A stretch of 64,000 nt of DNA from the NCBI GenBank assembly GCA_001657385.1, contig LYSZ01000004.1, positions 310,001 through 374,000 on the forward strand. The letters run 5' to 3'. The translations under genes and the position numbers were made by a program. Below are positions 3,317 to 12,317 of this stretch, in pieces. Positions within the stretch are counted from its first letter, which is position 1. Each line of letters opens with the position of its first letter. The notes below the pieces were generated by a model. It had not been told where the DNA came from, ran no database searches, and was given only the letters and a program-made list of their open reading frames with translations. This DNA comes from Parvularcula sp. BBD 1991-13 (GTDB lineage Bacteria > Pseudomonadota > Alphaproteobacteria > Caulobacterales > Parvularculaceae).

Positions 3317-4522
3317 ATGACAACATGGTCTCAAACGATGAATTCGGCCGTCCGCGCCAGGCTGGGCGTTATACTTGTTGGCTTTCTCAGCGTCCTTTCA
3401 GCCTGCCAGAGTTATCGGTTGTCGCCGCCAGACGACTCCGTCGTTCGGGCGGAGGCGGACAAGGTCGTCGACCCCTCCGAAATCGTTGTTCTCGTCAATT
3501 CCCGCGGCGCCGCGAGTAATTTGACCGTCAATGCGCTGCGGCGCGGTTATCGTCTCAAAGCCGAAACGCCTCTGAATTCGCTAGATCTCATCATGATCAC
3601 GATGGAGATTCCGGACGGCCGCGACGGCCCCGGCGCCATCAGGGAGCTTGAAGGCATAGAGCCGACGGCGACCGCCGGCGTCAATCACGCCTATCAACTT
3701 CAGGCGACGCCGGCCCGGCGAACATATCTCGACTATGGGCTTGAACTCATCGCCTGGCCGACGACGGCTTGCCCCGCTTTTGCCCGGATCGGAGTGATCG
3801 ACGCGATGCTCAACCCAGAAGACGCAGGGCGGGCGAGGGTGACGGCGCACAATTTTACGTCGGGCGAATTCGCGGCCGGCGGGCATGCAGATGCGATTGT
3901 CGCGATATTGACGGAAGAGCGCCTGTTGCTGGAGCCGGCTCTATTCGTCGCGGGCGTTGTGGGTCAGACCGCTTCCGGAGAGGAAGCGGCCGGCGTTGAC
4001 GGTATCCTCCGCGGGCTGAACTGGCTTGCAAGCCATGAAGTCCAAGTCGTCAATATCAGTCTTGCGGGGCCGTACAACAAAATACTGGATAGAGCCGTGC
4101 AGCGCGCGAGCGACGCCGGCATGATCATGGTGGCGGCGGCTGGCAATGCCGGCCCGGCCTCGCCGCCGCGCTATCCGGCGGCGTTCGAGGACGTAATCGC
4201 CGTCACCGCTGTGGACGCCGTTCCGAGAATTTACGAGCACGCTGTCCGCGGCCGCCATATTGATGTCGCTGCGCCGGGCGTTGACATCCTTGTTCAACTG
4301 AACGGCGCGCCGCGATTTATGTCCGGCACTTCTATGTCAGCACCGCTCGTTGCAGCGCGCATCGCGGCCGATCCGAAACTCAAACTCCCAGACGGGATAG
4401 ACCTCGTAAAGGCCGATGTCAGGACCAGCGTGGTCGATCTTGGCGAACGCGGCCGTGACGATATCCACGGGCACGGGCTGCTTCATCTTTCAGGCGAATG
4501 CCCGTCGCTCAAATATGGCTGA
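3317..4522 (+). CDS. S8 family (subtilisin-like) serine peptidase, probable lipoprotein
   Basis: Lipobox-like LSAC; IGVIDAMLNPED (Asp), GGHADAIVAIL (His), AAAGNAGPAS (Asn), SGTSMSAPLVAARIA (Ser); N-terminal prodomain-like segment. Confidence 0.85.
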   Translation: MTTWSQTMNSAVRARLGVILVGFLSVLSACQSYRLSPPDDSVVRAEADKVVDPSEIVVLVNSRGAASNLTVNALRRGYRLKAETPLNSLDLIMITMEIPDGRDGPGAIRELEGIEPTATAGVNHAYQLQATPARRTYLDYGLELIAWPTTACPAFARIGVIDAMLNPEDAGRARVTAHNFTSGEFAAGGHADAIVAILTEERLLLEPALFVAGVVGQTASGEEAAGVDGILRGLNWLASHEVQVVNISLAGPYNKILDRAVQRASDAGMIMVAAAGNAGPASPPRYPAAFEDVIAVTAVDAVPRIYEHAVRGRHIDVAAPGVDILVQLNGAPRFMSGTSMSAPLVAARIAADPKLKLPDGIDLVKADVRTSVVDLGERGRDDIHGHGLLHLSGECPSLKYG

Positions 4523-4584
4523 TAAAAGTGCAACCCTCTTCGTTTACGCTTGAACCGATCGCCGACGTCGCTCGACGAAGCAAT

Positions 4585-5073
4585 ATGAAGGATCCGGCCC
4601 GCATAGAAATTGAAGAGGCGCTTGACACGTTGTTGCCTAGGCTCTGGCGCTTCGCGGTCTCGTTAACCCGCGCTGGCGATCACGCTGAGGACCTTGTCCA
4701 GGCCACATGTCTGCGCATGCTTGAAAAAGCCTCCCATTACAAGCCCGGCACTAAGATCGATCGCTGGGCCTTCACGTTGATGGTGAACCTCTGGCGTTCC
4801 GAAAAACGCCGAAAGCAGGTCGTCCAATTCGGCGACGATTTTGACCGCGACGTTGCTGACGAAATGCAGGCGACGCCGGAAACCGCCGCCGAACATGGAC
4901 GCCTGTTGCGGGAGATCGACAGATTACCGCTGGCGCAACGTGCGGTCGTCACGTTGATTTTCGGCGAGGGATACGCCTATCGAGAAGTCGCCGAGATCCT
5001 GGATATACCGATTGGAACGGTGATGAGCCGGCTGTACGCAGCCCGTAAAACGCTAAAGGCCGTAATCAGATGA
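4585..5073 (+). CDS. ECF-type RNA polymerase sigma factor
   Basis: AEDLVQATCLRMLEKASHYKPGTKIDRWAFTLMVNLWRSEKRR and LPLAQRAVVTLIFGEGYAYREVAEILDIPIGTVMSRLYAARKTL. Confidence 0.9.
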   Translation: MKDPARIEIEEALDTLLPRLWRFAVSLTRAGDHAEDLVQATCLRMLEKASHYKPGTKIDRWAFTLMVNLWRSEKRRKQVVQFGDDFDRDVADEMQATPETAAEHGRLLREIDRLPLAQRAVVTLIFGEGYAYREVAEILDIPIGTVMSRLYAARKTLKAVIR

Positions 5074-5170
5074 AATACTCTTTAAATTCGAATAAAACGC
5101 CTAGCCCGATCGTTTACCACGCGTTCGCGCAATGACGCGGATTTGAAACCGGTATCGAAAGGGAAGCAAC

Positions 5171-5737
5171 ATGAAACATTCTTTACTCGCCTGTCTGGCG
5201 TTGTCGGCGGCGCCGGCAATCGCACATGCTGGCGATTTCCGCACAGCGCTTGAGTCAAAAAGCGTCATTGAAGGCGCGCAGGAAGTGCTCGGCGACGGCT
5301 CACTCGGCAACGGCTCGCAAGGGCTGGGAAACGGCATCATTCGCTTCAATAGAAATATGACCCGCGCCGACATCAAGGTTACGTTCAGCAACTTGGAGGG
5401 CGAATTCACCCGCCTTCACCTGCACTGCAACGTTGCGGGCCTCAATGGGCCGATTGCCGTCGGCCTCGTCGATCTGGTCGCTATCGCGCAAGACAATAGC
5501 GAAGTCTCAACGCTCGATTCAAATACGGTGGTGGCGCGCATTCGCAACGTTCAGCTTCCGCAAGACGGGGGCCCATGCAATATCAGCAATCTCAGAACAC
5601 TCGCCAATGAAATCAACAATGACGGAATCTATTTCAACCTGCACACGACCGCATTTCCGCCGGGAGAACTGCGCGGGCAGATCGAACCGCTGGAACCCGT
5701 CCGTCGCCGCAACAAGGATGAAGACGACGATGATTAA
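5171..5737 (+). CDS. CHRD domain-containing secreted protein
   Basis: Signal peptide; IYFNLHTTAFPPGELRGQIEP is a characteristic CHRD motif. Confidence 0.85.
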   Translation: MKHSLLACLALSAAPAIAHAGDFRTALESKSVIEGAQEVLGDGSLGNGSQGLGNGIIRFNRNMTRADIKVTFSNLEGEFTRLHLHCNVAGLNGPIAVGLVDLVAIAQDNSEVSTLDSNTVVARIRNVQLPQDGGPCNISNLRTLANEINNDGIYFNLHTTAFPPGELRGQIEPLEPVRRRNKDEDDDD

Positions 5738-5804: not shown

Positions 5805-6236
5805 GATCTAGAAATTGCGCAAGCCGAGCGCCCCCGAAGCAGATCAGCGTTTTCGGCCGGTCTTGAACAGCGGCGCGCTGCGTTGATTGTCAAACCCTCA
5901 GGGGCCGGAAAGTCCGCTTTGATCTGGTAGGCCGCCAAAGCGTTGCGTCGTACGGTGCGGTGGTTTCGGATCCGTCGTCTTAGTGCGGCGGATATTCCTC
6001 CTCTACGCCAGCTCATCCGAACGTTGCCTGCCTCGGAAGACAGTCCTGTGGGCTTCGTCATGGACGACATCAGACGTGACAGGCTGGGAAGCTGAGGCGC
6101 TCTGCTAAAAGAAGTAGTGTCTGTACCCGGCGTCGTGCTGCTCGGTTCGGTCCCAGAAGAAGATGCAACCCTAATTTCCGAGCGCGCACGCGCGGTTGAA
6201 GTGCGCGCCGATCCCGACGACGAACTCGCAGAACGC
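5805..6236 (+). pseudogene. Remnant of P-loop NTPase (STAND-like?)
   Basis: One frame reads ALIVKPSGAGKSALIW*AAKALRRTVRWFRIRRL...VGFVMDDIRRDRLGS*GALLKEVVSVPGVVLLGSVPEEDATL; Walker A and B-like motifs with in-frame TAG (5928) and TGA (6093). Confidence 0.7.
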
Positions 6237-6238
6237 CT

Positions 6239-6764
6239 GCCAGCTTCGCGTCATCGTCGTCGGCGGGGCCGAGGCCTGGCGCGTCGCGGCCGAACTGGCG
6301 GCGGTGAACGTTCCGGTCGTGCTCTATCCTTTCCATAACCTGCCGGGCGCGTTCGGTGATCCGGGCGCCAGCCTTAAAAACGCCGCGCGGCTTCATGCCG
6401 CTGGCGTGCGCATCGGCTTTTTCAATCCGCCTTCCGGGTCCCACAACCTCCGCCTGCTGACGCAAATGGCGGGCAACGCCGTCGCCAACGGCTTGCACTA
6501 CGACGCGGTGCTGGCCGCGCTGACCGAGACGCCAGCGGCTCTTTTCGGTCTCGGGGCCGAGCTTGGAACCCTTAAGCCGGGCAAGCGCGCTGACGTCGCC
6601 GTCTGGAACGGCGCCGTCCTGATGCGGGACAGGCGCGTCGCCGCCGTGGGCGAGCGCGATGCGGTGTCAGCGCCGGAGTGCGCACGCGTGATCGAGATGG
6701 CGGGAAAATGGATGACGCTGGGCGTCATGGACATTTACCCCCATCTCGGCGGCTACCCGTCCCC
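6239..6764 (+). pseudogene. Scrambled amidohydrolase (imidazolonepropionase-like) remnant: C-terminal piece joined to N-terminal piece
   Basis: SLKNAARLHAAGVRIGF...NLRLLTQMAGNAVANGL...LGTLKPGKRADVAVWNG (C-terminal type), then AVLMRDRRVAAVGE...GKWMTLGVMDIYPHLGGYPSP (N-terminal type). Confidence 0.65.
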
Positions 6765-6808
6765 TCCGAAGGCGGATGTCAGAGGTTCGAATCCTCTCGG
6801 GTGCGCCA
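6763..6808 (+). tRNA. Truncated tRNA-Arg(CCG): 3' half from anticodon loop to CCA
   Basis: CTCCGAA GGCGG ATGTC AGAGG TTCGAAT CCTCT CGGGTGC G CCA; 5' half absent upstream. Confidence 0.75.
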
Positions 6809-7336
6809 TTGTCGATCTCACGCTTGCTCGCTTCGCTGGCCGCTCCGATCGGGCGGACTGGCCGCCCGGAACGCGGTCGCGTTCTTGCGCCGAGATTGAG
6901 CTTCGTTCGAAACGCTCCGCCATCATCTTGCTCGCACACAGCGCCGAGCGTGCTCTTGCTTCCCAGCTTTCGGCAGGCGTTCTCTCCGACAGGACCGGCG
7001 AGAGCCACGGCGGCATTTTACTCTTTATACCGATAAATGTCGAGGTCTGGCGTTTGCGCTGGCAACCGTGTTTCGCGAACGGCGCCTGTCGGTGCGGAAA
7101 CTCCAGCTATCGAAGTAATACTGGGCCCTGTGAATTCATGGACTTCGACAGATCTTTAAAACCGACAGGGGAAACGCGGCTTATTTTTCTATTATCCGGA
7201 GATTTCGCGGGGCGTCATGTCAATAAAAACAATAATCTGGAAAATAAAAAGAAAACCAGAAGAAAAGTGAATCGATGTAATATTTTACTTGATTTTTAAT
7301 TCATTTCGGGGGTTTAATTCATAAACTGGAGAGGGT

Positions 7337-9685
7337 ATGGCCGCTATTCGCAAATCGCTGTTTCTCGGCGTCGCTGCGGCGATCGCTCTGAACGCGTGCG
7401 CCGTGACGCCCCGAATTCAGGGCTCGCTAGACGATATTGCTCTCAATACTGAGCAACGGACCAGCAACAGAAGGCTCGGGGACAGCGTGAATTTCGAGAC
7501 CGGCGATGTTTCGCTGCCTCTCGCGCTGGAATATGCCGACAACCGGAAAAAAGCCTGGGAGTCGCTGATCGACGAGAAACTCCGCATCCAGACCGGCGCC
7601 GCCGCCGTGACGTTCGGTTCGTTGCTGTCCGCGCTGGGCCTTTCCCTCGCGGGCGCGGGCGGACCCGACCTTTTTACGGTCCTCGGACTGGGCGGCGCGG
7701 CGGCGGTCGGCGGCTCGCGGCTGCTGCCGTCCACAGCGCAATTGACGATCATTCAGAACGGCGTCGGCGCCCTCGACTGTCTGACGACGGCGGCGGACCC
7801 TTATGTGATCGACAAGGCCAGGGCGGCGCGTCTGTTCAAGGACGCCGGGGCTTCCGGCGCCCCCGCTTCGCCGACCATATCCCTCAGCCGCGCCCATGCT
7901 GAGGCGATCGCGAGCGGCGCCAAAGACGGTTCCGCCATTCGCGCTGTCGAGAATGCGCTTGACTCCCAGGGCGGCCTGAGCCTTGAGGAAAGGCTTTCGT
8001 CGGCCGAGAACCGGGTCGAGGCGGCGAAATCGGCGCTTGAGCAGAAACTCAAAACGCTGCCGTCCGGCAATACGGACGAGCGCGCCAATCTGGCCTTGCG
8101 GCGCGCCGTCACCGCGCTTGCCGGGAGCGCGCGCGTCAGCGATCAGTTCGCCGAATATAAGGCGGGCGTCTATGTCGCGGGCGTGCAGCTTTACGACGCC
8201 GTCAGAGGCATCGAGAACGCCCTGCGCGCGCAACTCATCCCGGGCGAGGCGACCCCGGAACGCGCGGCGGCGGCGTTCAATCAGGCCCGGGACGCGGCCC
8301 TCTCGTTTTTCACATCCGCAAACGCAGGAACGGACCTCTCCCAGAGTTTGGCGACCCTGACCGGCGGCGATCTCGAACCCGGTTCGGAAAACCAGGCGAC
8401 GTCGGTCGGGAAGCCCGATGACGCCTTGGCTGACGAGATCGCCGCCCTGAACGGCGCGACCGACACTCTTCTGAAACAGGCGCGGGAAGCGAACGGCGTT
8501 GTGACGCAATTCGCCAAGGAAGTCGGCAAGCTAGGCGACGCCGGCAAATGCCCGCAATCGGTCTCCCCGCGGACGCTCATCGTCACCCCTGAGGCGGCGA
8601 TCATTTCCCTCGGTGCGGGCGATAAGGAAACGATTGTGGTTGTGGCCGGCAAGAAACCGGTCGTCGCCAAAACTCAGGACCCGCTGAACGTGCTGACGGT
8701 GGACGGGCCGACGCTCGATTCCGCTTCGGTCGATCGTTACACGATCGACCTAACCGCCGCGAAGAGCGTCGCAAAAGCGTCCACCGCCGTCGTTGAAATC
8801 AGCCTTGAGGGCCGGCGCGAGATAAAGACGATCGCCGTCTCGGCCAGTCCGCCGGCGACGGTGACCGTATCGCCGACGTCGAAGACGATCGCGCGCGGCG
8901 CAACAGGCGATTTCGTCGTCACCGCGAGCGACGGCGAGACGCCGCAACTGTGGGACCGGAATGAGCGGAGCGCGCCTGAAGAAACCATCGCGACAGCCGA
9001 GTTCAAGGTCAAGGACGCTGACAGGAACGAATTCACCATGTCGGTGAAGGTGCATGAAAAGCTCGACGCCAAGGAAGATAAAATCAATCTGACCGTCGCG
9101 TCGGCGGACGGCCGCGCCAGCGACGATTTCGATGTCGTCGTGCCGCCCGCGTCGGGCGCGCCGTCCTCCGCGCCGGGGATCATCGGCGACGCCAATGAAC
9201 TTGAAAAACTGCCGAAGCTGGTCGCGCAGGTGCAGAAGGTCCTGAACGGCGAGCTGGGATTAAGCGGGGATGAGGCCCTGCCCCTGTCCGGCGAGTACGA
9301 CGCCAGGACAAGTCAGCAGGTCAAGGCGTTTCAACAGAAATCCGGCCTGTCGCCGCAGAACGGCCGGCTTGACCAGGCGGTGCTGACGAAGGTCCGCGAG
9401 GCCGTGTTGAAACTGCCCGAAACCAAAGCCGCGCATGCGAGTGAAGGCGCATCGTCCGATACGATCGGGAAAGTCGAAAAAGCGCTTTATACTGATGAAC
9501 GATTTCGCGATGTCAGGTCTTTCATCGAGCAGGACGGCGCCTTAGACGAGGGCGAGCGCAAAGCGATCTGGAGCGTGCAACTGCGCGCCCTGCGCGACGG
9601 CGGCGTTCAGGCCGAGCAAGTCGACCTCAACGGCGCGCTGGGGCCTGCGACGGTTTCCTACATTACCGGCAATGTGAGCAAGTGA
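7337..9685 (+). CDS. Large lipoprotein with coiled, Ig-like and C-terminal PG-binding-like regions
   Basis: Lipobox ALNAC; ATVTVSPTSKTIARGATGDFVVTA Ig-like segment; LVAQVQKVLNGELGLSGDEALPLSGEYDARTSQQVKAFQQKSGL resembles PG_binding_1; GGAGAGGG RBS. Confidence 0.75.
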   Translation: MAAIRKSLFLGVAAAIALNACAVTPRIQGSLDDIALNTEQRTSNRRLGDSVNFETGDVSLPLALEYADNRKKAWESLIDEKLRIQTGAAAVTFGSLLSALGLSLAGAGGPDLFTVLGLGGAAAVGGSRLLPSTAQLTIIQNGVGALDCLTTAADPYVIDKARAARLFKDAGASGAPASPTISLSRAHAEAIASGAKDGSAIRAVENALDSQGGLSLEERLSSAENRVEAAKSALEQKLKTLPSGNTDERANLALRRAVTALAGSARVSDQFAEYKAGVYVAGVQLYDAVRGIENALRAQLIPGEATPERAAAAFNQARDAALSFFTSANAGTDLSQSLATLTGGDLEPGSENQATSVGKPDDALADEIAALNGATDTLLKQAREANGVVTQFAKEVGKLGDAGKCPQSVSPRTLIVTPEAAIISLGAGDKETIVVVAGKKPVVAKTQDPLNVLTVDGPTLDSASVDRYTIDLTAAKSVAKASTAVVEISLEGRREIKTIAVSASPPATVTVSPTSKTIARGATGDFVVTASDGETPQLWDRNERSAPEETIATAEFKVKDADRNEFTMSVKVHEKLDAKEDKINLTVASADGRASDDFDVVVPPASGAPSSAPGIIGDANELEKLPKLVAQVQKVLNGELGLSGDEALPLSGEYDARTSQQVKAFQQKSGLSPQNGRLDQAVLTKVREAVLKLPETKAAHASEGASSDTIGKVEKALYTDERFRDVRSFIEQDGALDEGERKAIWSVQLRALRDGGVQAEQVDLNGALGPATVSYITGNVSK

Positions 9686-10425
9686 GGCGCAACATGGAGC
9701 GGATCCGTCCCGGCATGGCCATCAGGAACGCAAGCGCGCCGAACCGCATCGGCACGATCGCGGGCTTCGCGCAGGTTCGGGGCGACGCCACCGGCGCCAT
9801 TTACATGATATCGTGCTCGCACGTCCTGGCGCCTTATCACGACCTGCCGCCCGGAGGCGGGCGCGACATCGAGACCCTGGCCGGCGTTAGGGTGGCCTCG
9901 CTGTTCGCGCGGACGCTGAACCAGCATGGCCAGGGGGATGCCTGGCATTCGGATGCGGCGCTGGCGAAAGTGGACCGCAACGCCGCCGCAGTGGATCTCT
10001 CCATGAAAGGGGTCGGCCCGCTGACCGGGCGGAGCGCCTTTCGTCACGAGGGGCTGCTTGTCTATATCGTGGGCCAGGACGACGAGCGGCCGAAAAAGGG
10101 GTGCGTCAAGGACGCCTGGCAAGGCTCGATCACGTTCACGTTCGATACGATCGACGCCGGACCGAAAACCTACCTGCTGAGAGAGGCGACGTCCGTCGAA
10201 GCGATCGACGCCGGCTTCGGCAATCCGGGCGACAGCGGCGCGATGGTTTTCAATCGTTTCGGCCTCGCCCTCGGCGTCGCCACCTTCCTGGCCACCGGAT
10301 CGGGCGATCGCTATTTCGCCCCGATCGGGCTTGTGCTGCGCGATCTTGAACGCGCCGCCGGCTTCACTCCGGGAACATTGCAGCTTGTAACGGGGGCGGA
10401 CCATGTCGAACTGCCGACGGCCTAA
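9682..10425 (+). CDS. Trypsin/chymotrypsin-fold serine protease
   Basis: Triad context: SCSHVLA (His), HSDAALAKV (Asp), NPGDSGAMVFN (Ser). GTG start overlaps upstream stop; alternative ATG at 9694. Confidence 0.75.
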   Translation: MRRNMERIRPGMAIRNASAPNRIGTIAGFAQVRGDATGAIYMISCSHVLAPYHDLPPGGGRDIETLAGVRVASLFARTLNQHGQGDAWHSDAALAKVDRNAAAVDLSMKGVGPLTGRSAFRHEGLLVYIVGQDDERPKKGCVKDAWQGSITFTFDTIDAGPKTYLLREATSVEAIDAGFGNPGDSGAMVFNRFGLALGVATFLATGSGDRYFAPIGLVLRDLERAAGFTPGTLQLVTGADHVELPTA

Positions 10426-10479
10426 TCCGCTCCCGGGTATTGCGGCGCCGGGACGTCCAACGAAAGGGGCGTATGCATC

Positions 10480-11889
10480 ATGACCTTCGAGGCGATTCTC
10501 GATGTTTCGATCGGGCTTGTCCTGATCTTCGCATTATTCAGCCTGCTGACCACGACGATTGTCGAGCTGGCTTCGGCGATGCTTCGCCGCCGGGCCCGCA
10601 TGCAGGAGCTGGGCATATACTACCTGCTCGACGGCGAGGGGCCGCGCCGCCCCTTGTTCAGCCGCCTGTTCGGGGGCAACGCCTATGTTACCCTTTCGGT
10701 GGCGAAAAACGACACCCTCGCCGCGAGGTTTTACGGGCTTGAATCGATCAAGGCGCTCATGGACCGGCGGCGCTTGCCGACCTATATCGGCGCCGACGCT
10801 TTCGTGACCGGCGTCATGGCGCTAGTGCACACGGATCTTCCCGTCGCCGGGGACGATCCCGACTACGGCGCGGCGGCGCGCGCCGACCAGACGGGGTCCA
10901 GGCTCGCCTCGATCATCAAGGAACTGTTTCCCGGCAAGCCCGTCGGGCGCGGCGAACTGGAAAAGCGGCTGAGGGCCTACTACAAGGACGCCACCGACCG
11001 CATTGTCGGGTGGTACGCGCGCGAGACGCAGATCTGGCTGGTGGCGGTCGGTTTCCTCACCGCCGTCATTTTCAACGTGAACGTCATCGCAATCACGGCC
11101 GAGCTTGCCGGCAACGCGACCCTGCGCGAGCGCCTCGCCAACGCGGCCGCCTCAGACCAGGAGATCGCGAAACTCGCGGCGACGTTAGCCGAGCAGGACG
11201 ACGGGGCCTCGGAGGACGCCAGGGACTATATCCGGTTGAAGCGGCGGCAGATCAGCGAGATCGAACAGGAAGTCTCCGCGCTCGGCCTGCCCATCGGATA
11301 TTGCAGCGCGCCGTCCCCCGATCGCGGCGTTTCCGGCGCAGCGCCGGCGCAGGAACCGCCCGTCCTCCTGCCGCCTGCGCCCACATTATCCCTGACCGCC
11401 GCGCCTCCGGCCCCGGGCGATTGCGGTTTTTTCGCACAACTTGCCAAGCCGGCGAGCTATTTCGGGTGGCTTCTGACCGCGATCGCAATTTCGCTGGGGG
11501 CGCCGTTCTGGTTCGATCTGTTGTCGAAGCTTGTCGCCATTCGCCGGGTGGGAAAGACGCCTGCGGACGATAAAGGGGAAAAGGAGAAAGACGCCGTTCC
11601 GGGCCGGACCGGATCCGAAGGCGGCATTCTGCCCGCCGGCGCCGGCCCGGCCGACGCCGATCGCTCGCGCGGCGGCGCGACCCTGACCGATTTTGAAAAG
11701 GAGTGGCTGAGCACGGACGATGTCAAAACCGTTCAGAGACTGATCGGCGCCCCGGCGCGCAACGGCGATCTCACCGACCCGGCCACCCGCGAGGCGATTG
11801 TCAGATGGAAAGAGGCGCGGGGCCAGAGCCGGCCGAGCGCCGACATCACGGCGCAAATGATGCTCGATCTTTACGGGAGGCGGTCATGA
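10480..11889 (+). CDS. Uncharacterised multi-TM membrane protein with C-terminal PG-binding-like segment
   Basis: TM segments near residues 10-30, 185-210 and 325-350; C-terminus DVKTVQRLIGAPARNGDLTDPATREAIVRWKEARGQ. Confidence 0.65.
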   Translation: MTFEAILDVSIGLVLIFALFSLLTTTIVELASAMLRRRARMQELGIYYLLDGEGPRRPLFSRLFGGNAYVTLSVAKNDTLAARFYGLESIKALMDRRRLPTYIGADAFVTGVMALVHTDLPVAGDDPDYGAAARADQTGSRLASIIKELFPGKPVGRGELEKRLRAYYKDATDRIVGWYARETQIWLVAVGFLTAVIFNVNVIAITAELAGNATLRERLANAAASDQEIAKLAATLAEQDDGASEDARDYIRLKRRQISEIEQEVSALGLPIGYCSAPSPDRGVSGAAPAQEPPVLLPPAPTLSLTAAPPAPGDCGFFAQLAKPASYFGWLLTAIAISLGAPFWFDLLSKLVAIRRVGKTPADDKGEKEKDAVPGRTGSEGGILPAGAGPADADRSRGGATLTDFEKEWLSTDDVKTVQRLIGAPARNGDLTDPATREAIVRWKEARGQSRPSADITAQMMLDLYGRRS

Positions 11890-12317
11890 GACTGTCGAAG
11901 GATTTCTGGCTTTACGAATTCACGCGCTCCCAGACGGCGTCCCGCCACGGGATCGACAACACGCCGCCCCTGGCGGCGATCGTGGAAATCCGCGCCCTCG
12001 TCGACAATGTGCTGCAGCCCTTGCGGGATTTCATCAGCCGGCCAATCAACATCAATTCCGGCTACCGCAGCGAGGCGCTGAACGCGGCGGTCAGGGGCAG
12101 CGCCAACAGCCAGCATATGAAAGGGCAGGCCGCCGATATTGAGTGTTTCGGGTACAGCAATGTCGCCCTGTTCCAGTCGATCCGGCAAAATCTCTATTTC
12201 GATCAGCTTCTGCTTGAATTTCACCGCCCGGAGGACGGGCCGAATTCGGGCTGGGTTCATGTTTCCTTCAAGTCCGACGGAAACAACCGCGGCGACGCGC
12301 GTCAGCTTGGCGCCTGA
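11886..12317 (+). CDS. M15-family (D-Ala-D-Ala carboxypeptidase-like) peptidase
   Basis: NINSGYRSEALNAAVRGSANSQHMKGQAADI and GWVHVSF zinc/active-site motifs; ATGA overlap with preceding gene. Confidence 0.85.
   Translation: MRLSKDFWLYEFTRSQTASRHGIDNTPPLAAIVEIRALVDNVLQPLRDFISRPININSGYRSEALNAAVRGSANSQHMKGQAADIECFGYSNVALFQSIRQNLYFDQLLLEFHRPEDGPNSGWVHVSFKSDGNNRGDARQLGA

Follow-up and report, generated by a model that had tools for sequence, protein, structure and literature searches.

A chromosomal gene cluster of Parvularcula that joins a new inner-membrane protein family to a phage-type endolysin: a candidate enzyme-release or lysis module

What might a bacterium do with a phage-like endolysin that is encoded, in a tightly packed chromosomal run of four genes, with a lipoprotein, a protease and a membrane protein? 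The question is raised by positions 7337-12317 of a 64,000-nucleotide stretch of Parvularcula sp. BBD 1991-13 (contig LYSZ01000004.1, positions 310,001 to 374,000), referred to here as the window. An earlier note, made from the sequence of the window, had proposed a system for cell-wall remodelling, lysis or conflict. We tentatively read the cluster, with a little less than even confidence, as a module on the chromosome for enzyme release or lysis, with a new family of inner-membrane proteins at its core. The four open reading frames lie where the note had placed them, all on the + strand, as checked on the sequence and its reading frames:

7337-9685, + strand: P0001, a lipoprotein of 782 amino acids with a hydrophobic N-terminus and the lipobox LNAC (Cys21), without convincing relatives
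9221-9391, + strand: PG_binding_1 domain of P0001 (residues 629-685; Pfam E 3.7e-7, above the cut-off)
9694-10425, + strand: P0002, a trypsin-like serine protease without signal peptide (alternative start GTG at 9682, from which it would have 247 amino acids)
10480-11889, + strand: P0003, 469 amino acids, a member of the GAPFWFD inner-membrane family with three predicted transmembrane segments
11695-11886, + strand: C-terminal tail of P0003 (residues 406-469), helical and resembling peptidoglycan-binding segments, probably cytoplasmic and unrecognised by Pfam
11886-12317, + strand: P0004, a phage-type M15_3 endolysin-like peptidase of 143 amino acids without signal peptide

The membrane protein family and its wall-hydrolase partners

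P0003, taken at first for an orphan membrane protein, proved to belong to a widespread family, with 581 loci or more among the species of GTDB. A scan of genome contigs with P0003 alone gave no matches because the peptide patterns it contains diverge too far, and the family was found instead with three-row and ten-row profiles. Among 100 related genomes, one (G073) has a full-length relative followed directly by an M15_4/VanY peptidase, and one more (G026) has a distant relative followed by endonuclease I. With profiles made from these two relatives, members were detected in 9 more genomes of the class, and scanning GTDB contigs for the motif confirmed the 581 or more relatives in Proteobacteria, Acidobacteria, Bacteroidota, Chloroflexi, Actinobacteria, Verrucomicrobia, Planctomycetota and other phyla. 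Since neither Pfam, PHROG nor NCBIfam holds a model for the family, its members are annotated as "hypothetical protein". No match was detected among 50,697 phage records; the family is present in one viral contig, and some members are plasmid-borne.

The family is recognised by an invariant arginine (R38), the P and Y of a PSYI or PTYI motif, a DRxxGWY helix and the sequence GAPFWFD at the last membrane segment. In alignments P0003 has the GAPFWFD, DRxxGWY and PSYI/PTYI motifs together with three predicted transmembrane segments, at about residues 5-23 and 187-205 (from hydropathy) and 327-345 (from the alignment and the structural model). The model has a predicted local distance difference test score (pLDDT) of 75, with core blocks above 90. 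Hydropathy and the charge rule predict an N-terminus outside, a first membrane segment, a conserved cytoplasmic domain, a second segment, a periplasmic loop with two cysteines that several other family members also have, a third segment and a cytoplasmic tail. This bears on the suggestion that two proteins of the cluster carry C-terminal peptidoglycan-binding-like segments: the domain of P0001 was confirmed, but the tail of P0003 is probably cytoplasmic by the positive-inside rule and is for that reason likelier to dock a partner than to bind the wall.

The gene that overlaps P0003 encodes, as had been supposed, a peptidase of a type that cleaves peptidoglycan. P0004 matches Peptidase_M15_3 (E 1.1e-18; 67.8 bits against a cut-off of 23.2 in Pfam) and the endolysins of PHROG 894 (E 1.1e-40). 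Over its length it shares 48-54% identity with enzymes of Salicola and Pelagibacter phages, and its zinc ligands His77, Asp84 and His125 are invariant in the alignment with them.

We examined the best 80 loci from the family scan for such pairs. Of 77 family genes, 13 have a peptidoglycan hydrolase directly downstream on the same strand; among the 1068 other genes in these loci, 1 does (Fisher 3e-15). The hydrolase queries for this comparison were taken from the partners, so that the background is limited to those families, and the loci are related by descent. The gaps at these junctions range from -37 to +104, and the 4-base overlap of stop and start seen between P0003 and P0004 is the commonest arrangement (6 of 13). 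By Pfam the partners are Amidase_2, M15_4/VanY, Muramidase and Phage_lysozyme, with GH19 below the cut-off; the partner at L103 (loci are cited here by L numbers) is M15_3-like by motif, and related operons add CHAP and GH25 hydrolases. Plasmids of Hymenobacter and Caballeronia likewise have a "hypothetical protein" followed by an annotated N-acetylmuramoyl-L-alanine amidase. Not one of the peptidoglycan-hydrolase partners has an N-terminal signal-like hydrophobic stretch, a feature that is present in P0001, in endonuclease I and in RNase T2. These gene orders and sequences give good support to a specific and tight coupling between genes of the P0003 family and peptidoglycan hydrolases that have no signal peptide and vary in class.

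The tails, probably cytoplasmic, vary along with the partners in the STVKP clade (19 tips, support 0.92), outside which P0003 falls. Six tails linked to amidases, from members in Bacteroidota, Burkholderiales and Acidobacteria, have a common ending of the form DEDLP-like..GGV; four M15_4-linked tails end in W..G, three of them with EGVL or EVL; and two muramidase-linked tails resemble each other. Judged from these endings, tail type goes with hydrolase class in three classes. Within this clade all 13 long-tailed members have an adjoining hydrolase compared with 1 of 6 short-tailed members (p 5e-4, uncorrected for descent). Three members, L098 (amidase-linked) and L047 and L060 (both M15_4-linked), stand apart from their own class in the core tree, with weak support. 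The tail of P0003 is a third kind, a helical peptidoglycan-binding-like segment with homologous counterparts in L164 and L149.

Tight coupling and matched tails would suit a dedicated anchor as well as they suit a gate. P0003 might accordingly anchor or regulate a domesticated endolysin for local, non-lytic wall opening during growth or envelope assembly, and the predicted wall binding of P0001 and the chromosomal, single-copy state of the cluster beside metabolic genes fit such a role. An anchor alone, however, would leave the hydrolases off the wall, because they have no signal peptides, and the operon is missing from nearly all relatives, unlike housekeeping wall enzymes. We regard remodelling of this kind as quite unlikely.

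Proteases, exported proteins and other enzymes beside the family

A protease is also part of the recurrent arrangement. P0002 resembles Trypsin_2, although at 25.4 bits it falls under the Pfam cut-off of 27.6, and its single-sequence fold model has a pLDDT of 31. The intact appearance of its catalytic triad held up on alignment, with His47, Asp91 and Ser185 (in GDSG) conserved in two distant relatives, at L164 and L168. No relative of P0002 was detected in 288 other genomes, in plasmids or in viral contigs, and none of the L164 protease in 245 other genomes of its family. At L164, in Herbaspirillum sp. SJZ107, the order is lipoprotein, trypsin-like protease and membrane protein with a tail of the P0003 type; the protease is homologous to P0002 (shuffle z 7.3) and the membrane protein to P0003 (z 38). 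Homology of the two lipoproteins was rejected (hhalign E 0.1-0.9; shuffle z 0.9 for the first 400 residues), the full-length shuffle z of 3.6 being on low-complexity sequence. Otherwise the searches for relatives of P0001 covered 148 other genomes, plasmids and viral contigs and yielded a single weak partial match (E 0.003), in the genomes.

Further examples come from the clade to which P0003 itself belongs (7 tips, support 0.95). L170 encodes the membrane protein, a GH25 hydrolase, an S8 protease and an exported protein of 749 amino acids; L167 the membrane protein, an S8 protease and an exported protein of 643 amino acids; and L168, from Bacteroidota, a C1 protease, a fusion of the membrane protein with a trypsin-like domain (6148-8478, - strand; assigned from the GDSG triad motif, without a Pfam match), an exported protein of 888 amino acids and a CHAP protein with PG_binding. 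A Hymenobacter plasmid has the order membrane protein, amidase, S8 protease. By these domain assignments, protease and endolysin recur as joint partners of the family membrane protein, with the enzyme families exchanged. The earlier idea that the genes form an uncharacterised envelope system that includes a wall hydrolase is thereby upheld: the pair of membrane protein and hydrolase recurs, and a trypsin-like protease is paired with the membrane protein too, at L164 and in the L168 fusion.

Could the four genes be accidental neighbours without a common function? The exact set of four was absent elsewhere in our searches, so that co-occurrence of all four families was not found, although part of the arrangement is conserved in relatives. 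The pair statistics and the recurrent protease partners make chance untenable for P0003 and P0004 and unlikely for P0002 and P0003, and we find an accident scarcely credible. The cluster itself is compact. The ATGA overlap of P0003 and P0004 is real (11886-11889), and P0002 and P0003 are spaced by 54 bases. An overlap of P0001 and P0002 through a GTG within the stop codon had been suggested and was not confirmed. A GAGG Shine-Dalgarno-like site lies 6 bases upstream of ATG 9694, so P0002 probably begins there, 8 bases past the stop of P0001 and without overlap, rather than at GTG 9682. No intergenic + strand terminator-like site was detected within the cluster; the sole + strand match, at 8288, falls inside P0001.

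Enzymes of other kinds were also seen beside or within family members. L147 has a fusion of the membrane protein with a class 3 lipase (Lipase_3; 487-2586, - strand). Neighbouring genes include those for a TIR-domain protein and a DUF4062-like protein at L032 (7904-10993; by eye), a patatin at L054 and a phospholipase-C-like phosphoesterase at L083, and at L115, L006, L119 and L121 they comprise RNase T2, endonuclease I and vanadium haloperoxidases. In L126 (5986-10324) and L140 (652-3675) we noted a two-gene module, common to a viral-collection contig and Herbaspirillum, of a membrane protein (578 or 640 amino acids) and a very long protein without Pfam match. Acidobacterial family members at L062, L085 and L087 and at L041, L089 and L106 have constant neighbours of their own: a 2'-5' RNA ligase-like gene (by eye) occurs in three of these loci and a secreted protein of about 310-340 amino acids, with no assigned family, in three.

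Such neighbours can be taken in two ways. Genes for TIR, patatin, phospholipase, nuclease and haloperoxidase proteins point to a broader membrane platform that has wall attack among its uses, and they also leave room for a conflict role. In the latter case, an abortive-infection-like module, the membrane protein would sense infection or membrane damage and activate a resident toxic enzyme (protease, endolysin, lipase or nuclease) that kills the cell. To the TIR-domain, DUF4062-like, patatin and phospholipase-C-like neighbours this explanation can add the Lipase_3 and trypsin-like fusions, the plasmid location of some members and a patchy distribution, with a full-length P0003 relative in 1 of 99 other genomes near the host. 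However, PADLOC returned no match for P0001, P0002 or P0004; the cluster operon contains neither a sensor gene nor one for nucleotide signalling; the case for it includes no linkage to known defence genes; and wall hydrolases, the commonest partners, are atypical as abortive effectors. The one PADLOC match, of P0003 to BrxHII (E 0.003), was rejected as spurious, being a helical coiled-coil-like stretch without other support. Defence is the main rival to lysis or release, and in our judgement an unlikely one.

Outside the operon, we noted one further feature:

6781-6808, + strand: a fragment resembling a tRNA 3' end (T arm, acceptor and CCA), the "att scar" of the earlier note

An amidohydrolase-like remnant leads into this lone fragment (6196-6808), an arrangement that resembles an integration scar. 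A genome search that allowed up to 2 mismatches detected no second copy of the fragment, and no complete tRNA was detected within the window. Further upstream (3317-5737), and separate from the operon, are a secreted subtilase (Peptidase_S8), a sigma factor of the extracytoplasmic function (ECF) type and a CHRD-domain protein in tandem.

Enzyme release or lysis

Remodelling, lysis and conflict were named together in the original proposal, and these three were not separated by our analysis; lysis or release is favoured because a phage-type endolysin is encoded without a signal peptide. With a membrane protein encoded next to signal-less wall enzymes as the common anatomy, docking followed by regulated passage would be the simplest reading. 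P0003 would span the inner membrane and expose its variable C-terminal tail to the cytoplasm, where the tail would dock the matching enzyme of the cytosol; in this cluster that enzyme would be the endopeptidase P0004. When signalled, P0003 may let P0004 cross the membrane and cut the wall, and the outcome would be lysis of the cell or an opening of the envelope with release. The cytosolic P0002 might be a second cargo or a proteolytic trigger. P0001, exported and putatively wall-binding, may act outside, in an outer-membrane or wall step or in sensing; this is a guess from gene position and the predicted wall-binding domain, and the sensor role proposed earlier for the lipoprotein was not borne out.

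Several observations count against this mechanism. We found no holin, spanin or known export motif in P0003, and its modelled fold had no match in the PDB or the BFVD viral library. About 83% of the scanned family loci have no adjoining hydrolase, and several members adjoin lipase, nuclease, TIR or haloperoxidase genes; for these reasons wall lysis cannot account for the family as a whole. At L164, too, no hydrolase gene adjoins the relative. The lipoprotein of L164, moreover, appears to be only analogous to P0001, with no clear homology between their sequences.

A broader proposal would accommodate the varied partners. The GAPFWFD family might be a new class of docking or gating proteins of the bacterial inner membrane, each with an exchangeable tail in the cytoplasm that picks out its cognate toxic enzyme (endolysin, protease, lipase or nuclease) to be released across the membrane, a possibility that we put forward as somewhat unlikely. 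No higher do we rate the wider idea that such a general enzyme-release platform is unrelated to holins or named secretion systems, with the present cluster as its protease-plus-endolysin version. If this is true, hundreds of bacterial species in many phyla carry an unrecognised module of a membrane protein and a phage-type wall enzyme, the pairs of tail and enzyme offer a testable recognition code between membrane gate and cargo, and the exit of cytoplasmic products could be explained, for example of extracellular contractile injection system (eCIS) particles that have no lysis cassette.

The last point has some basis in gene neighbourhoods. Some eCIS loci are without a lysis cassette according to a review (PMC10598620), and eCIS_core, DUF4255-like or sheath genes lie within a few kilobases of family members at L068, L072, L113, L157 and L158 (a profile match for eCIS_core, PF13699, in L068, and assignments by eye and similarity for the DUF4255-like and sheath genes). 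The pair might then be a release device for particles or toxins, serving as the eCIS lysis cassette in some genomes and for other cargo elsewhere. As only 5 of about 100 loci show this, we consider it very unlikely. As the role of the present cluster, eCIS lysis was rejected, since the host genome gave no match to the phage-sheath profile PF04984 while controls were positive.

Comparison with known systems

We found no description of the GAPFWFD motif or of such an operon in the open-access literature. The eCIS and tailocin lysis cassettes (PMC10598620) are comparable to the family in that a membrane protein and a hydrolase stand beside eCIS genes at the 5 loci; the canonical cassettes, however, use holins and spanins, and the host of the cluster has no eCIS. 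The phage M15_3 endolysins of PHROG 894 are like P0004 in length-wide identity and zinc ligands, but the gene for P0004 belongs to a bacterial operon and is accompanied there by that of a membrane protein that is not of phage type.

Type 10 secretion, described in Serratia, Yersinia and Salmonella, uses a holin (ChiW or HolA), an endolysin (ChiX or PepB) and spanins (PMC10847048, PMC10109510, PMC9527704). The cluster is like it in that a chromosomal inner-membrane protein is encoded with a signal-less phage-type endolysin, P0004 (phrog_894), here adjoining by the ATGA overlap, and possibly in controlled release. A natural fusion of holin and endolysin has also been reported (PMC9527704), with which the fusions of membrane protein and enzyme at L147 and L168 may be compared. 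Where type 10 secretion has a small phage-type holin, however, the cluster has P0003, with 469 amino acids and no PHROG, Pfam or structural match; and in place of an i-spanin and o-spanin, for which no spanin profile matched, it has a lipoprotein of 782 amino acids. Since by profile it is without holin and spanins, we did not file the cluster as type 10 secretion. The family as a whole differs as well, with proteins of 300-480 amino acids that have a large conserved cytoplasmic domain, and with a far more variable class of partners that includes proteases and lipases.

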